Part shown: positions 1 to 5,482 of the stretch, piece after piece
How the letters are laid out: each line of letters opens with the position of its first letter
Numbering within the stretch: position 1 is the first letter of the stretch
Assembly: GCA_024401915.1 (NCBI GenBank)
Contig: JAKSKA010000065.1
Coordinates: 1-7,568, forward strand
DNA: 7,568 nucleotides
DNA from: Bacteroidales bacterium
GTDB taxonomy: Bacteria > Bacteroidota > Bacteroidia > Bacteroidales > UBA932
Direction of reading: 5' to 3'
The notes under the pieces: generated by a model
The model's input: the letters and a program-made list of their open reading frames with translations, nothing else
Database searches by the model: none
What the model was told of the DNA's origin: nothing
Position numbers and translations under genes: made by a program

Positions 1-1139
1 CCGCTGAGGGAAACGATGATACAGAAGATCATAGCGTTCGAAGGAGTGCCATATCTGGGGCTGATCTTTCCGAACACGGGAGGAAGATAGCCGTCGCGGC
101 TCATCGAGTACATAAGGCGGCTGGAGGCGAGATAGAAGCCCATTATTCCGGACAGGACCGCGCAGGACACAGCAGTGCCGACAAGCACCTTGCCGAACAC
201 GCCGAGTATGTTTTCAGCGGCGATCAGGAGTACCCACTCCCCTGCCATCACGCGTTCCGGCCAGTTCTCGCAGGCTGCAGCGGCAACCGTATTGTTCGCA
301 ATATAGACAAAGCAGCCGAATAGGATGGCGATGACCATAATACCCATCACCTTGCGGTAGGAGAACTTGAACTCCTCGGCGGCCTGCGGGATCGTATCGA
401 AACCGACGAATGCCCAGGGAGCGATCGCGAAGGTGGCGAGGATCGCGGAAAGGACACCCTGGCGGCCGACGTGCGCAAAGGCACCGATATCCGCAGTCGA
501 GGCCGATGCCTGCATTGCGGCAGCCTTGTCGAATCCCCACATCGGGTGCATATTGAGCACGCTCGCCTTGTCGCTCACGATGGCGGCGATCACGAGGATC
601 AGTATCGACCCGGCCAGAAGGCTCGCGAGCACCGTCTGCACGAAGCCCGCCTTCTTGACGCCGATGATGTTGAGCCATCCGAAAAGGATCAGTATCGCCA
701 TCGCGAACATCATCTCGCCAGCCCAGACGTCGAAGCCCGCCACGCTGTAGTGGAAGCCCCATTTCAGAATGTCGGCACCACCGTCCAGACCATCGACGAT
801 AAGCCCGATTGCCGTCGAGTTCATCGGCACGTTGGTAAGGTATGCGGCGACAAGGAACCAGCCGCAAAGATAGGCGGGAGCCTTTCCGAAGCAGTTCTTG
901 GTGAAGGTGAACTCACCTCCCGCCTTCGGGAACTTCGGCACCATATAGGCATACGCAAAAGCGATGATGATCATCACGAGGGCACCGAGGACCATCGCGA
1001 TGGCCGTTCCCTCTACGCCGGAATTCGGGAGGAATTTCTTTCCCGGATTGATGAATGAACCCCAGCCGATGATGCAGCCGAAGGCGATTGCCCAGACGTG
1101 TGTCGGGGACAGCTGTCTCTGTAATCCTGTCTTTGCCAT
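1..1139 (-). CDS. APC-superfamily amino acid permease (3' end off the window)
   Basis: Read directly from the minus strand: ATG at 1139-1137, then 379 open codons running off the left edge, so the last membrane segments are missing. The protein is strongly hydrophobic with repeated membrane segments (about residues 13-33, 45-67, 88-112, 140-160, 167-188, 228-250, 264-284, 303-340). Family marks are IIGWGSF at 24-29, where APC permeases usually have a Gly-rich GxG unwound helix; PKAGGEFTF near 71-79; FVGFDTIPQAAEEF at 244-257; and SRLMYSMSRDGYLPPVF at 340-356. These fit an inner-membrane amino acid or amine importer; the substrate cannot be read from sequence. The start lies 2 bases after the stop of the HTH-Gfo/Idh gene and has no clear ribosome binding site, which suggests translational coupling and co-regulation. 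Family call firm, substrate unknown. Confidence 0.92.
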   Translation of the reverse strand, partial: MAKTGLQRQLSPTHVWAIAFGCIIGWGSFINPGKKFLPNSGVEGTAIAMVLGALVMIIIAFAYAYMVPKFPKAGGEFTFTKNCFGKAPAYLCGWFLVAAYLTNVPMNSTAIGLIVDGLDGGADILKWGFHYSVAGFDVWAGEMMFAMAILILFGWLNIIGVKKAGFVQTVLASLLAGSILILVIAAIVSDKASVLNMHPMWGFDKAAAMQASASTADIGAFAHVGRQGVLSAILATFAIAPWAFVGFDTIPQAAEEFKFSYRKVMGIMVIAILFGCFVYIANNTVAAAACENWPERVMAGEWVLLIAAENILGVFGKVLVGTAVSCAVLSGIMGFYLASSRLMYSMSRDGYLPPVFGKISPRYGTPSNAMIFCIIVSLS

Positions 1140-1141
1140 TC

Positions 1142-2290
1142 TTATATGATTTTATTTTGGATATCTATCATCTTGAGCAGTTCCTCACGAGTGACATATT
1201 CCCGTGGGTCCCTGCGGTTTATCTTGTCCGAAAGCACACGGATCTCATAACGGAGCCCGTCGGCCTCATAAGGGAAGAAATACTTCTTGTTCTCGGCCGG
1301 ATTCTCGAACCTGACCTCGAAATAATCAGGCTTCCACCAGGGGGCGGGGACATAGATATAGCCTCTCGTCCCGGATATGACCAGACTGCCCTCGCTCTTC
1401 ACGCCGACCCCGACCTTAAGGGAGCCGGACGCCCTGTCGAATTCCAGGATGGAGTGGGTGAACAGGGCCTTGGAGCCTTCGCGCCTCACCACGCTGCTGA
1501 CGTGGCGGCAACCGGTGCCGAAGATCTTGAAGAAAGCCAGCAGCGGATAGCTTAGGTTCTCGAGCATCCTCTCGTTTGCGAAATCGACGGGCACTGCGTC
1601 CGGAAGCAGGTTCGTGACCGTTGCGCTCACATCCACAGCCTCCCCGATGATCCCCGATTTCGCGACAACCATCATCTGGCTGAAAGAAGGGCAGTAAGCC
1701 GTCTTCAAGGCGGGAAGCACCACGAGATTCCTGCGCGCCGCAGCCTTGAGCAGTTCTTCAGCCTCCGTGCGTTTTGTGGTGAAAGGCATCTCGCACAGCA
1801 CGTGACGGCCATTTTCAACTGCCTCCATAGCATACTGGAAATGAGTATCCACCGGTGATGCGACATATACGGCATCGACAGCGGAAAGGAGTTCGGCATA
1901 GCCGGATGCGGCCCTCGGGATGCCATTCTTTTCACAGAAGGACTGGCACTTGACAACATCGGGATTATACGCCGCTGCGACTTCGACTCCGGGAACCGAA
2001 AGCGATTCACGCACAAAACGGCCGGCGATATTGCCGGTACCTACTATGCCTATCCTCACCGGGGCGGACTTTCCCCTGTAGGTCGAATCCGACGATACGG
2101 GCTCGCCAAGGGCCTCTTCGATCAGAGCCTGGCTTCTCGGGGATATGTTGCAGCGCCCGGAAAACCAGCGGCTGATCTCAGCCTCCTTTTTTCCGAGCAG
2201 CAGGGAAAAATCCTTCTGGGTCAATCCCCTTTTCTCAAGGATCGACCTGATATTGGAAACCACTTCCCTATTTCTGCACTCCTTTTCCAC
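1142..2290 (-). CDS. XRE helix-turn-helix / Gfo-Idh-MocA fold fusion, probable ligand-sensing regulator
   Basis: From GTG 2290 the protein is 382 residues. Residues about 10-62 form an XRE/HigA-antitoxin-like helix-turn-helix (GLTQKDFSLLLG, then EISRWFSGRCNIS). Residues about 78-200 form an NAD(P)-binding Rossmann fold with GIVGTGNIAG at 81-90. The rest is the Gfo/Idh/MocA C-terminal domain, ending in the usual DGLRYEI and VTREELLKM segments. The family's catalytic EKP reads E-M-P (residues 167-169; ATG codon at 1789-1787), and the expected D-x-G-x-YP reads NLSYP (245-249). It is therefore probably not an active dehydrogenase; a sensor that binds NAD(P) or a sugar or amino-acid-like ligand and DNA is my inference. 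No in-frame ATG precedes the HTH. The open frame extends to TTG 2368 (408 aa), but the promoter at 2346-2315 would start transcription inside that extension, so GTG 2290 is preferred. It is the first gene of an operon with the permease. Confidence 0.88.
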   Translation of the reverse strand: MEKECRNREVVSNIRSILEKRGLTQKDFSLLLGKKEAEISRWFSGRCNISPRSQALIEEALGEPVSSDSTYRGKSAPVRIGIVGTGNIAGRFVRESLSVPGVEVAAAYNPDVVKCQSFCEKNGIPRAASGYAELLSAVDAVYVASPVDTHFQYAMEAVENGRHVLCEMPFTTKRTEAEELLKAAARRNLVVLPALKTAYCPSFSQMMVVAKSGIIGEAVDVSATVTNLLPDAVPVDFANERMLENLSYPLLAFFKIFGTGCRHVSSVVRREGSKALFTHSILEFDRASGSLKVGVGVKSEGSLVISGTRGYIYVPAPWWKPDYFEVRFENPAENKKYFFPYEADGLRYEIRVLSDKINRRDPREYVTREELLKMIDIQNKII

Positions 2291-2314: not shown

Positions 2315-2346
2315 CAAAATTACCACGCCATTCAGTTTTAAAACAA
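2315..2346 (-). promoter_or_regulatory. Bacteroidetes-type promoter of the HTH-Gfo/Idh operon
   Basis: On the minus strand, TTG at 2346-2344, a 21-base spacer, then TAATTTTG at 2322-2315. This fits the known Bacteroides primary-sigma pattern (TTG near -33, TAnnTTTG near -7). The expected start is near 2309, leaving a leader of about 19 bases before GTG 2290. A second perfect TAATTTTG lies at 2364-2357, but I see no TTG at the right distance upstream of it. Confidence 0.6.
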
Positions 2347-2357
2347 TCAACTCTTGC

Positions 2358-2402
2358 AAAATTAACAATAATGAAAAGAATTTTTATATAATTGTTAATT
2401 TT
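2358..2402. repeat. Inverted repeat with 12-bp perfect arms, candidate operator
   Basis: AAAATTAACAAT at 2358-2369 is mirrored exactly by ATTGTTAATTTT at 2391-2402, with partial pairing continuing inward around a centre at 2380. It sits in the divergent region, just upstream of the proposed -33 element of the HTH-Gfo/Idh promoter, and covers the second TAATTTTG box. It is AT-only apart from one C/G pair, so it is more plausible as a protein-binding site on DNA than as a terminator. AT-rich sequence makes chance repeats more likely, though 12 matched bases is long. Confidence 0.55.
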
Positions 2403-2439
2403 CTTTCAATGTTAAGCGAAATCCATTTCAAAATGTTAA
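2393..2439 (+). repeat. Three TGTTAA direct repeats in the divergent region
   Basis: TGTTAA occurs at 2393-2398, 2410-2415 and 2434-2439; the last two are part of a longer AATGTTAAG repeated exactly at 2408-2416 and 2432-2440. The inverted form TTAACA is at 2362-2367. The clustering upstream of the Abi promoter fits repeated regulator-binding half-sites, but the words are short and AT-rich. Confidence 0.4.
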
Positions 2440-2465
2440 GTCATTATAATACCATTCCTAACCTA

Positions 2466-2496
2466 TTGGAGAGAGTATGGATTTTCAGTAATTTTG
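2466..2496 (+). promoter_or_regulatory. Bacteroidetes-type promoter of the Abi gene
   Basis: TTG at 2466-2468, a spacer of exactly 20 bases, then TAATTTTG at 2489-2496: a full match to the Bacteroides -33/-7 pattern. The expected start is about 2502, giving an 18-base leader before GTG 2520. This leader is nearly the same length as that of the divergent operon. The site supports a downstream start for the Abi gene, because in-frame ATGs at 2409 and 2433 would lie outside this transcript. Confidence 0.65.
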
Positions 2497-2509
2497 CGTT
2501 TGGCAAAAT
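2491..2509. promoter_or_regulatory. Palindrome ATTTTGC-N5-GCAAAAT over the Abi -7 box and start site
   Basis: ATTTTGC at 2491-2497 and GCAAAAT at 2503-2509 are perfect 7-bp inverted arms around 5 bases. The left arm lies within the -7 element and the right arm falls just past the expected transcription start. A repressor bound here would block the promoter, so it is a candidate operator. The left arm is partly dictated by the promoter consensus; the right arm is not. Confidence 0.5.
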
Positions 2510-2519
2510 ACACCGGAAC

Positions 2520-3422
2520 GTGAAAAAGGAATTTACAGGATTCTATCTGGACTTCGACCAGCTCATTGCGATGCTTCGCTCGCAGGGTCTGGAAATAGAG
2601 GGCGAGAAAAAATCGAAGAACATACTTTCCAACGTCAGCTATGCGAGGCTGAAAAGCTATCTCATCCCCCTGATGGAGGACAGGTCGACACACAGGTTCA
2701 AGCCCGGGGCCACCTTCGGCCAGGCCTATGCGCTCTACGGCTTCGACAGACGCCTCAGGGAACTCATTTTCCACGAGATGGAAAAATTCGAGATATCCCT
2801 CAGAACCCATATCGCCAACGCCACTTCCGGAGCCGAGAAGGGCTACTGGTTCATCAACCCCGACTATTTCAAGAACCCGAGGGACCACGCGAACCTCCTG
2901 AGGAAGATGCTCAGCGACATAAACCGTTCGGACAATGACGCGATCGTGCGTTTCAAGGAAAAATACTCCAACGACTTCCCTCCCTGCTGGCTCACCCTGG
3001 AAGCCACGTCGATGGGCACCCTCGCCATCATCTTCGCGGAGATGAAACCGGGTCCGTTCAAGTCGAGGATAGCCGACTACTATGGAATAAGCGAGGCCGT
3101 GCTGAATTCCTGGATACAGCATCTGGTCTATGTCAGGAACTACTGCGCCCACCACAACAGACTGTGGAACAAGCACCTGGCGGTCGAAGGGCTGGTTCCG
3201 GAAAGAACGAGGGACCCGTTCCCGGACCTCGAAGCAAAGGACTCCAGGAAGATTTACTTCACCCTCTGCGTGCTCAAGTACCTGGTCAACGTGATCAAGC
3301 CTGACAACAACTTCGCGCTCAGGCTCGTGAACCTCATAGACAGCTTCAAGACAGTACGGACGGAAAGCGAGATGGGCTTCCCGTCCGGATGGAGAGATGA
3401 CCCGTTCTGGAGGGTTTACTGA
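2520..3422 (+). CDS. Abi_2-family (AbiD/AbiF-like) abortive infection protein, HEPN ribonuclease fold
   Basis: Starting at GTG 2520 (MKKEFTGFYLDF) the protein is 300 residues, the usual size for Abi_2 proteins. Visible family signatures are the opening FDQLIAMLRSQGLEIE (12-27); NVSYARLKSYLIPL (38-51), where the family has a YYRLSGY-like segment; RRLRELIFHEMEKFEISLRT (77-96); CWLTLEATSMGTLAIIF (156-172); and RNYCAHHNRLWN (206-217). The last holds R206-x4-H211, the HEPN ribonuclease motif, intact. Known AbiD/AbiF members of lactococci stop phage growth at the cost of the host cell; RNA cleavage here is inferred from the HEPN motif. The reading frame stays open upstream to 2145 across the antisense HTH gene, but the promoter and the domain start argue against that extension. 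Base composition resembles its neighbours, so no recent transfer is evident. Its end overlaps the GTPase end. Confidence 0.92.
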   Translation: MKKEFTGFYLDFDQLIAMLRSQGLEIEGEKKSKNILSNVSYARLKSYLIPLMEDRSTHRFKPGATFGQAYALYGFDRRLRELIFHEMEKFEISLRTHIANATSGAEKGYWFINPDYFKNPRDHANLLRKMLSDINRSDNDAIVRFKEKYSNDFPPCWLTLEATSMGTLAIIFAEMKPGPFKSRIADYYGISEAVLNSWIQHLVYVRNYCAHHNRLWNKHLAVEGLVPERTRDPFPDLEAKDSRKIYFTLCVLKYLVNVIKPDNNFALRLVNLIDSFKTVRTESEMGFPSGWRDDPFWRVY

Positions 3423-4555
3423 ATCCCTTCGTCAGAGAGACAGGCGTCAAGCGCCGAAGCGATTGCCGCCTTGTCGAGATTGCGGCCTATGAAGACCAGC
3501 TTCTGCATCCTGTCCCCGTAAACGTCATCCCAGTCCCTGCGTAGTATGGGATCGGACATCAGCGCATTCTGCAGGTCCACGGCAGGCATTGTGGCATACC
3601 ACTGCCCGGCCTTCTTCATCGAGATCTGAGTACCGGCCTGTTCGAAGAGATAGCAGTTATCGGTATCATCCGCAAAATAGCACAGACCCTTGACCCTTAT
3701 TATCCCGGCAGGCCAGTGCTTGGCGACGAAATTGTCGAACTTGTTGATATCCAGCGGCGGACGGGAACAATAGACAAAGGTGCCTATGCCATATTCGTCC
3801 GCCTCGCCTTCCTCTTCGTTCTCCTCTACCTCACCCTCGACGCCTTCGACCCAGCCCGCGGAGCCTGAAACCGACTCGTAGTCGAAACGGCCGGTCCCGA
3901 CTACGCGGTCGATATCCACATCGGCATAATCGCACTCTATGATCTCGGCGCGCGACTGTAGCTGGCGTATGATGGAACGGAGCGTGGAGAGGTCCTCCTC
4001 AGAGACCATCGAAGCCTTGTTGAGAAGGATGACATCACAGAACTCTATCTGCTGGATCACGAGGCTTTCGATATCATCCTCGCCGAGGTTGCCGCGGAGC
4101 AGGTCCTTCGCGCAAGCGAACTCGTCCCTCATACGGAGGGCGTCCACGACGGTAACTATGCAGTCGAGCCTCGGCGTGCCGTAACGGTTCACCTCGCTTC
4201 CCATCGCAGGGATGGAACAGATCGTACGGGCGATGGGTTCCGGCTCGCATACCCCGCTCGCTTCAACCACGATATAATCGAAGCGGCCGGTCGCGGCTAT
4301 ATCCCTAAGCTGCTGGACAAGGTCCATTTTCAGGGTGCAGCAGATGCAACCGTTCTGGAGGGCCACGAGGCTGTCGTCCTTGAGTCCGACAACTCCTCCC
4401 TTGCCTATCAGGTCGGCATCTATGTTGACATCGCCGATATCATTGACTATGACCGCGAACTTGATTCCCCTGGTATTCGCGAGTATCTTGTTGACCAAGG
4501 TCGTTTTTCCGCTTCCCAGGTATCCGGTAAGCAAAAGTACAGGTATTTCTTTCAT
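3416..4555 (-). CDS. COG0523 / CobW-type GTPase, putative metallochaperone
   Basis: A 379-residue G3E-family P-loop GTPase. The N-terminal half has Walker A GYLGSGKTT (11-19), NDIGDVNID (38-46, the family's NEFGEVGID segment), the metal-binding C-x-C-C motif GCICC (69-73), Walker-B-like YIVVEASG (94-101) and NKAS (179-182) for guanine recognition. The CobW C-terminal domain spans about 256-372. Between the halves is a linker rich in acidic residues (236-254), where many relatives carry His-rich metal-binding stretches. Family members deliver Zn, Co or other metals to client enzymes in the cytoplasm; the metal here is not readable. It lies 15 bases downstream of a CDF efflux gene, so a metal-homeostasis role is well supported. 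No zinc-starvation operator is visible in front of it. The start ATG 4555 is the natural one, with no clear Shine-Dalgarno. Its stop overlaps the convergent Abi stop. Confidence 0.94.
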   Translation of the reverse strand: MKEIPVLLLTGYLGSGKTTLVNKILANTRGIKFAVIVNDIGDVNIDADLIGKGGVVGLKDDSLVALQNGCICCTLKMDLVQQLRDIAATGRFDYIVVEASGVCEPEPIARTICSIPAMGSEVNRYGTPRLDCIVTVVDALRMRDEFACAKDLLRGNLGEDDIESLVIQQIEFCDVILLNKASMVSEEDLSTLRSIIRQLQSRAEIIECDYADVDIDRVVGTGRFDYESVSGSAGWVEGVEGEVEENEEEGEADEYGIGTFVYCSRPPLDINKFDNFVAKHWPAGIIRVKGLCYFADDTDNCYLFEQAGTQISMKKAGQWYATMPAVDLQNALMSDPILRRDWDDVYGDRMQKLVFIGRNLDKAAIASALDACLSDEGIQ

Positions 4556-4570
4556 ATCTATTAACGGTTT

Positions 4571-5482
4571 TCAGGATTCCGGAGAGGCGTCCACGTCCTG
4601 CTTAATAGGTTCGACGTGGATGGCGACGTGGGTATTCTCTCCGTAGCGGTCCTTGATGGCGCTCTCGATTTCCGTGGCCCTGGCGTGCGCTTCGTGCAGC
4701 GTGATGTCTCCGCTCATCCTGATATGCATCTCGATGGCGAAACTGTTGCCTATGCGGCGCGTGCGCAGATGATGCGGGTCCGAAACATCGGGAAACGCGG
4801 ACACGAGGCCCAGTATCTCGTCTTCGGTCTCCTCCGGAAGCGAGCGTTCCATCAGCTCGCCGATACCATTGCGCAGCAGCTCCACGGCCACCTTGACGAT
4901 GAACACGCCGACAACGATGGACGCAATCGGATCGAGCACCGCCCAGTTGTTACCGAGCAGCACGGCTCCGCTTATGCCGAGCGCCGTCCCGACGGACGAG
5001 AGCGCATCGCTCCGATGATGCCAGGCATTAGCCTCGAGGGCCTGTGAATTGAGGTCACGTCCCTTGAGCCTGGTGTATTGGAAAATCAGTTCCTTCAGCA
5101 CGATGGACACGATGGCGGCCCAGAAAGCGAGCATCCCGGGAGACTGGATCGTACCGCCGCGGACCACCACGACGACACGGCTTATGCCGTTCCAGAATAT
5201 CCACAGGGCAACTCCGAGCAGGACCAGCGCCACACAGGTGGTCGCAAGGGTCTCGTACTTGCCGTGACCATAATCGTGGTTCTTGTCCTGCGGCTTGCCG
5301 CTGATGCGGACGAAGACGAGCACGATGATGTCGGTCACGAAATCGGAAAGCGAATGGACGGCATCGGCAATCATCGCGGCACTGTGGCCGAAAATGCCGG
5401 CGACGAACTTGAACGCCAGCAGCGCGGCATTGAGGAAGCCTCCTACAAGCGTCACCTTGATGATTTCGCGTTCCCTGTCCAT
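4571..5482 (-). CDS. Cation diffusion facilitator (CDF) family metal transporter
   Basis: 303 residues, typical for a bacterial CDF protein: six membrane segments followed by a cytoplasmic domain. The transport site is visible as H43-x3-D47 (AVHSLSD) in the second helix and H155-x3-D159 (HHRSD) in the fifth, equivalent to the DxxxD and HxxxD pairs of YiiP. D70-YG-H73-GKYE matches the second metal site of YiiP. The C-terminal domain (about 208-292) has the dimer metal-site histidines: H237 (DPHHLRTR), H253, H266 (LHEAHAR) and H289 (VAIHVEP). CDF proteins exchange protons for Zn, Mn, Fe or Co, exporting the metal. A His rather than Asp in helix 2 occurs in several CDF branches and does not by itself fix the metal. 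The start is 2 bases after argS and just before the GTPase gene, pointing to an operon. The gene is complete. Confidence 0.95.
   Translation of the reverse strand: MDREREIIKVTLVGGFLNAALLAFKFVAGIFGHSAAMIADAVHSLSDFVTDIIVLVFVRISGKPQDKNHDYGHGKYETLATTCVALVLLGVALWIFWNGISRVVVVVRGGTIQSPGMLAFWAAIVSIVLKELIFQYTRLKGRDLNSQALEANAWHHRSDALSSVGTALGISGAVLLGNNWAVLDPIASIVVGVFIVKVAVELLRNGIGELMERSLPEETEDEILGLVSAFPDVSDPHHLRTRRIGNSFAIEMHIRMSGDITLHEAHARATEIESAIKDRYGENTHVAIHVEPIKQDVDASPES

Follow-up and report, generated by a model that had tools for sequence, protein, structure and literature searches.

Why should a protein with the fold of a Gfo/Idh/MocA dehydrogenase begin with a DNA-binding domain? The question is raised by one gene in a 7,568-nucleotide stretch of DNA from a gut bacterium of the Bacteroidales (the window), which a preliminary description read as a dehydrogenase fold turned transcription regulator. 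The sequence comparisons reported here suggest that its product probably acts as a switch for genes that decorate the cell surface with phosphorus-containing groups. The gene and its parts are as follows.

1142..2290, minus strand: HTH–Gfo/Idh/MocA fusion gene, candidate regulator; 382 aa, GTG start
2099..2251, minus strand: XRE/HTH_3 domain (Pfam PF01381), residues about 14–64; carries invariant residues in 121 sequences
2159..2185, minus strand: predicted recognition helix, residues 36–44 (EAEISRWFS); helix 3 of the AF2 model
1145..2062, minus strand: Gfo/Idh/MocA body, residues 77–382; NAD(P)-type Rossmann domain and C-terminal sheet
1787..1789, minus strand: Met168 codon, aligned with the catalytic lysine of the EKP motif (KijD10 Lys102)

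The two-domain architecture is common to the whole set of relatives analyzed. The HTH_3 domain scores 30.7 bits against a curated Pfam cut-off of 23, and HTH models alone match the N-terminal part of the protein. A CTP_transf_like domain is absent from this N-terminus in the Pfam search, and the architecture survey separates the HTH fusions from cytidylyltransferase fusions. A phmmer search returned 6,844 proteins under an E-value of 1e-3, and the family analysis rests on the 120 that were listed. Each of these covers 94% or more of the query in its alignment and keeps the motif [S/A]RW in the recognition helix; a precomputed HTH_3 call is present in 118. In the alignment of these relatives with the window protein (121 sequences), Q25, K34, E38, R41, W42, and L61 are invariant, and E36, S40, S44, and G45 are nearly so. 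Because the relatives are fused and the HTH residues invariant, the architecture is established and under selection, and is neither a chance read-through nor the product of a mis-called start; a start downstream of the HTH was rejected. The preliminary description was thus right about the junction of an HTH with a full-length Gfo/Idh/MocA protein, found in the Pfam domains and in 120 of 120 listed homologues, and about the start codon, which precedes the HTH segment. The structure prediction that it proposed places HTH helix 3 at residues 36–44, and the HTH residues whose conservation it asked about, Q25, K34, E38, R41, and W42 among them, are kept across the homologues.

In a scan of 84,980 species genomes, the fusion protein was present in two of the best 80 loci, L001 and L002, both from Bacteroidales metagenome-assembled genomes of the herbivore gut. 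Surveys by rank recovered the query genomes themselves: one of 198 genomes in the order of G001, one of 199 in the family of G001 and one of 199 in that of G002, one of 200 in each of two genus searches, and two of 400 in a genus at an E-value of 1e-140. The family of G003 gave none in 399 genomes, an empty result that carries no weight in the absence of a known positive. At most nine candidates were scored per genome (at most four in the genus search at 1e-140 and in the family of G003), so these surveys may have missed fused forms. Viral contigs contained three relatives, each aligned over only about residues 7–78 and none fused across the body.

Heads and bodies may not always have traveled together. 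P0022 and P0055 have heads that are 97% identical on bodies that are 52% identical, and P0022 and P0018 have bodies that are 86% identical below heads that are 47% identical. The presence of near-identical heads on different bodies suggests selection on the HTH. Head/body mismatch was observed among P0022, P0055, P0078, P0018, P0035, and P0051, and may reflect HTH exchange between paralogues or, for single-contig clusters, assembly chimeras. The window's HTH head matches the PADLOC candidate defense models PDC-M64B/C (3.1e-14) and is 53% identical to a 112-residue HTH protein. XRE regulators and antitoxins of this kind (HTH_3; PDC-M64B/C) share the head, but those found are about 90–135 residues long and have no enzyme body.

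The body contains both expected domains, a Rossmann NAD(P) domain with GxGxxA and a C-terminal α/β domain. Among its closest solved folds are KijD10 and dimeric dihydrodiol dehydrogenase (3rc1, 2o48), which are enzymes with a lysine (Lys102 in KijD10) where the HTH family has Met or Thr. In the alignment, Met168 lies opposite KijD10 Lys102 and Tyr248 opposite KijD10 Tyr186, two residues for which mutant structures exist in the PDB according to entry titles. The window protein (Met168) and 119 of 120 relatives have another residue in place of the EKP lysine; across the 120, the triplet reads ETP (69), EMP (43), EIP (4), EVP (2), ELP (1), or EKP (1). The cofactor glycines 81/84/86 and Tyr248 are invariant (121 of 121), the SP..TH motif and Lys196 are conserved in the HTH family, and so are K298, E300, W318, W319, E329, and Y348, which are also found in cytidylyltransferase fusions. 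Most simply, the fold would still bind a dinucleotide but do without the usual catalytic lysine, and the body is unlikely to be a normal dehydrogenase. Since this lysine is missing, we assign the protein to the Gfo/Idh/MocA fold and not to the enzymes of the family; retention of Tyr248 makes residual chemistry possible. The sole EKP protein among the 120 listed relatives, P0069, stands for 250 member sequences, and its near neighbor P0064 has ETP.

The origin of the body was sought among HTH-less relatives. Gfo/Idh proteins had been taken to be normally stand-alone, which does not hold here: the nearest HTH-less relatives of the body are nearly all cytidylyltransferase–Gfo/Idh fusions. Read to their own starts, those among the matches listed begin, with few exceptions, with a TagD-like cytidylyltransferase. 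A regular-expression script that classified 126 loci, duplicates included, found 119 with a cytidylyltransferase head, four with an HTH head (L001, L002, and their second copies L081 and L082), and three with neither (L056, L063, and L086); a stand-alone ancestor of the body was rejected on the count of 119 in 126. The one head tested against the PDB, that of L037, matches glycerol-3-phosphate cytidylyltransferase (1.8e-32). In the listed loci (e.g., L003, L017, and L037), the body of these fusions is 38–47% identical to that of the window protein, whereas the N-terminus is of the GCT/TagD type without an HTH, and their loci showed no counterpart of the permease from the HTH operon.

The catalytic lysine distributes by phylum in these sister proteins. 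With the HTH loci and L086 excluded and identical rows collapsed, cytidylyltransferase–Gfo proteins retain it in 29 of 30 cases from Bacillota, 3 of 3 from Actinomycetota, and 2 of 2 from Spirochaetota, but in only 3 of 41 from Bacteroidota (1 of 32 in a further set). Like the HTH family, with which they have many conserved residues in common, the Bacteroidota fusions have mostly lost the EKP lysine, so the loss is not specific to a regulator role; the idea that it accompanied the gain of the HTH was rejected on this basis. Of the two dehydrogenase-site residues, the Lys is missing from 38 of 41 Bacteroidota cytidylyltransferase–Gfo proteins and the Tyr from 37 of 41; most of these proteins lack both, so they may be non-redox too.

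A careful 67-row tree places its 17 HTH rows on one side of a branch (support 100/100) and unites them with one Bacteroidales cytidylyltransferase set that has ETP and some EIP and ESP (100/99). It was drawn from 110 rows, omitting the long rows L047, L090, and L126 as well as L001 and L002. A quick tree of all 110 rows, for which locus rows were thinned and L081–L086 omitted, agrees: its 39 HTH rows (36 P proteins, the window, L001, and L002) group with support 100, and their union with the Bacteroidales set has support 84. Both trees are unrooted; should the root fall on the lysine side, where canonical enzymes would put it, the parsimonious order is that the lysine went first and the head changed later. 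The HTH has apparently replaced a nucleotidyltransferase head, a direction that we infer from the comparison. The alternative fusion partner and the lysine loss are both visible in living relatives.

Many of the sister proteins lie in loci for CDP-activated surface-glycan tailoring, as judged from LicD-type genes: a search of 80 loci plus the window detected them in 44 of these 81 sequences. Within the same 81, they are absent from L001, L002, and the window. In three of four neighbor-scanned loci (L003, L017, and L058, not L037), LicD is one or two genes away. L017 also encodes a triple fusion, NTP_transf_3–CTP_transf_like–PEP mutase (8875-10884, plus strand), near its cytidylyltransferase–Gfo/Idh gene, LicD, and a PhnW-like transaminase. 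Sixteen cytidylyltransferase–Gfo loci (L003–L006, L008, L010–L018, L021, and L027) have a gene for a class V aminotransferase resembling PhnW/AepZ, and in the 110-row tree all 16 belong to the sister clade of the HTH proteins.

What such a protein might control is indicated by its operon partners, of which the window contains one:

3..1139, minus strand: APC-family amino-acid-type permease, probably in the same operon; 2 bases downstream of the fusion gene, running off the window

The preliminary description had put the gene at the head of an operon with a transporter, and the order holds in both other mapped loci. The window permease is 78% identical to the one at the same position in L001, and the L002 permease is 73% identical to that of L001; a search of 126 loci, copies counted, matched the L001 permease in no other locus except L002. 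Its identity as AepP was considered and is unsupported, AepP being a GlpT-like MFS protein in the accessible text of PMC8316502 and the window permease an APC protein. The third gene in L001 and L002 encodes a nucleotidyltransferase (73% identical between the two). Among PDB entries, the L001 protein matches PntC best (6PD1, 5.8e-45), with LicC at 1.4e-18. PntC is the CTP:2-aminoethylphosphonate (AEP) cytidylyltransferase, in which Glu104 and Glu196 are placed to contact AEP (PMC6697681, section 8). Both align with glutamates in the L001 protein (numbers counted by hand on the alignment), and by eye the glutamate motifs are present in the L002 protein also.

In L002, these genes are followed on the same strand by a cytidylyltransferase–PEP mutase fusion, a phosphonopyruvate decarboxylase, and an AEP transaminase, and the PEP mutase, decarboxylase, and transaminase each score above the NCBIfam cut-off. 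The HTH–Gfo gene of L002 thus heads an operon for AEP synthesis and activation. The apparent operon of L001 consists of three genes, and no PEP mutase scored above the Pfam cut-off in the L001 draft genome; AEP may therefore be imported there or another aminoalkyl phosphate used, and, provided that the draft is complete, the usual route to AEP would be lacking. The operon comparison covers the window and the two mapped loci. The window's third-gene position lies beyond base 1, and a pntC-type gene is predicted there from L001 and L002.

The region upstream of the fusion gene is shared with a divergent gene and contains several candidate control elements:

2315..2322, minus strand: TAATTTTG, presumed Bacteroidetes-type -7 box of the fusion gene
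2357..2364, minus strand: second TAATTTTG box, overlapping the inverted repeat
2358..2402, no strand: 20-nt inverted repeat, 85% complementary, 5-nt loop; candidate operator
2409..2416, minus strand: CTTAACAT box 1, candidate binding site
2433..2440, minus strand: CTTAACAT box 2, candidate binding site
2490-3422, plus strand: Abi_2/AbiD-type abortive-infection gene, divergent (Pfam 2.6e-50; PADLOC AbiD 1.2e-63)

We take TAATTTTG to be a Bacteroidetes-type -7 box; a further copy lies at 2489-2496, at the Abi_2 gene. At the Rfam gathering level, the window has no RNA-family match. In the window, L001, and L002 alike, the region upstream of the gene contains two copies of CTTAAC, six occurrences in total against 0.27 expected from shuffles. 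The same hexamer is found two times in 45 AT-rich non-coding control regions of Bacteroidota (11,254 bp), never twice in one region. CTTAACAT is absent from these 45 regions (11,254 bp), and its two boxes are its only occurrences in the whole window (0.04 expected). The shorter TTAACA alone, seen twice upstream in L002, is not significant (p 0.10), and the upstream regions of the window, L001, and L002 have no palindrome in common. We treat a CTTAACAT operator as a lead, because CTTAAC and CTTAACAT were picked from the three regions where they were counted, the box spacing varies, TTAACA is weak in L002, and a common palindrome is absent. Perhaps the gene is autoregulated through these boxes.

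Taken with the operon, these features make it likely, in our view, that the protein is a one-component regulator whose sensor is a pseudo-dehydrogenase; it would control its own surface phosphono-tailoring operon, and the HTH would have replaced a TagD-like head. The N-terminal XRE-type HTH would bind operator DNA in the 2291-2519 intergenic region, at the CTTAACAT boxes and/or the 2358-2402 inverted repeat. The catalytically disabled body would act as dimerizer and sensor, probably binding NAD(P) and a small ligand. The target would be the protein's own operon, that is, the permease and, as in the two mapped relatives, PntC, in one of them followed by the AEP-making genes; autoregulation, of positive or negative sign, is what we infer from this arrangement. 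With its own operon as the target, the ligand would be a phosphono- or phospho-alkyl tailoring intermediate or an imported solute, most likely AEP, CMP-AEP, a related phospho-alkyl intermediate, or that solute. Historically, the TagD-like head of a bifunctional cytidylyltransferase–Gfo/Idh protein would have been swapped for the HTH. A regulator derived from a dehydrogenase fold, as first proposed, stands as the best reading, while the generic sugar, polyol, or amino-acid ligand gives way to CDP/CMP-activated phospho- or phosphono-alkyl tailoring as the likelier context.

Three other explanations were weighed against this regulator. PutA is a precedent for an enzyme that autoregulates its own operon, and the fusion protein could be a trigger enzyme of this kind, with a body still active through an unusual catalytic set. 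Conservation of the cofactor glycines, SP..TH, Lys196, Tyr248, and many C-terminal residues fits an active body, as does the EKP of one cluster, P0069; yet the EKP lysine is missing from the window protein and 119 of 120 relatives, and the conserved residues could equally serve ligand sensing. We regard a trigger enzyme as unlikely, if worth keeping in mind. An ordinary metabolic Gfo/Idh enzyme, its HTH vestigial or used for protein interaction, would explain the fold-level likeness to many oxidoreductases, and XRE heads do serve other roles, e.g., in antitoxins. But few parts of the protein are as conserved as the recognition helix, and the near-identical heads on different bodies suggest that the head itself is selected, which leaves this explanation the least probable of the three.

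The neighboring genes offer a different target. A regulator with an antitoxin-like head might mainly control the divergent Abi_2/AbiD gene and so be a host switch for defense: the CTTAACAT boxes lie between the two promoters in the common intergenic region, the head matches PDC-M64B/C, and the neighbor matches PADLOC AbiD. The conserved partner, however, is the permease and not Abi_2, and no Abi_2 gene was identified among five scanned neighbors of L001 and L002, a part of the flanking ORFs; these five encode a glycosyltransferase, an aminotransferase, a UDP-sugar dehydrogenase, and two proteins without a Pfam match. We hold a primary role in defense to be very improbable.

Rex and NmrA, redox-sensing regulators from other families that use a dinucleotide fold as sensor, had been offered for comparison, but Gal80 is in our judgment the nearer functional precedent. 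Gal80 belongs to the Gfo/Idh fold. In the accessible text of PMC8801411, this repressor of the yeast GAL genes regulates transcription with an NAD(P)-binding Rossmann domain and a β-sheet dimer. Gal80 has no DNA-binding domain and acts by binding Gal4 (PMC8801411), whereas the window protein has a fused HTH. If the proposed mechanism is true, the protein would be for bacteria what Gal80 is for yeast, a gene switch made from an enzyme fold; the surprising part is its apparent origin by head replacement, together with the link to phosphonate tailoring. The tailoring steps that follow C–P bond formation "remain enigmatic" in a 2019 account (PMC6697681), in whose main text, as accessible, the word "regulator" does not occur. 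With a regulator tied to such genes whose sensor domain can be defined, their control would become open to direct test. Our literature search found no report of the HTH–Gfo/Idh/MocA architecture, an absence that is weakly supported since the family name is not searchable verbatim, and none of the cytidylyltransferase–Gfo fusion.

A wider proposal is tentative, and we hold it to be possible rather than probable. The protein might represent an undescribed family of regulators, derived from a bifunctional CDP-activating protein of surface glycans in which an antitoxin-like HTH replaced the nucleotidyltransferase head on a body already without its lysine. Together with NAD(P), the dead body would signal a phosphono- or phospho-alkyl intermediate in its activated form to the operon responsible for making it, and recombination would exchange heads between paralogous sensor bodies and so rewire sensors to operators.

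Beyond the Abi_2 gene, the window contains two adjoining genes on the minus strand:

3416-4555, minus strand: CobW/ZigA-like GTPase
4571-5482, minus strand: CDF cation-efflux gene

The GTPase matches NCBIfam ZigA at 1.1e-104, yet under the model's cut-off, and the two genes are perhaps a small metal-homeostasis pair.
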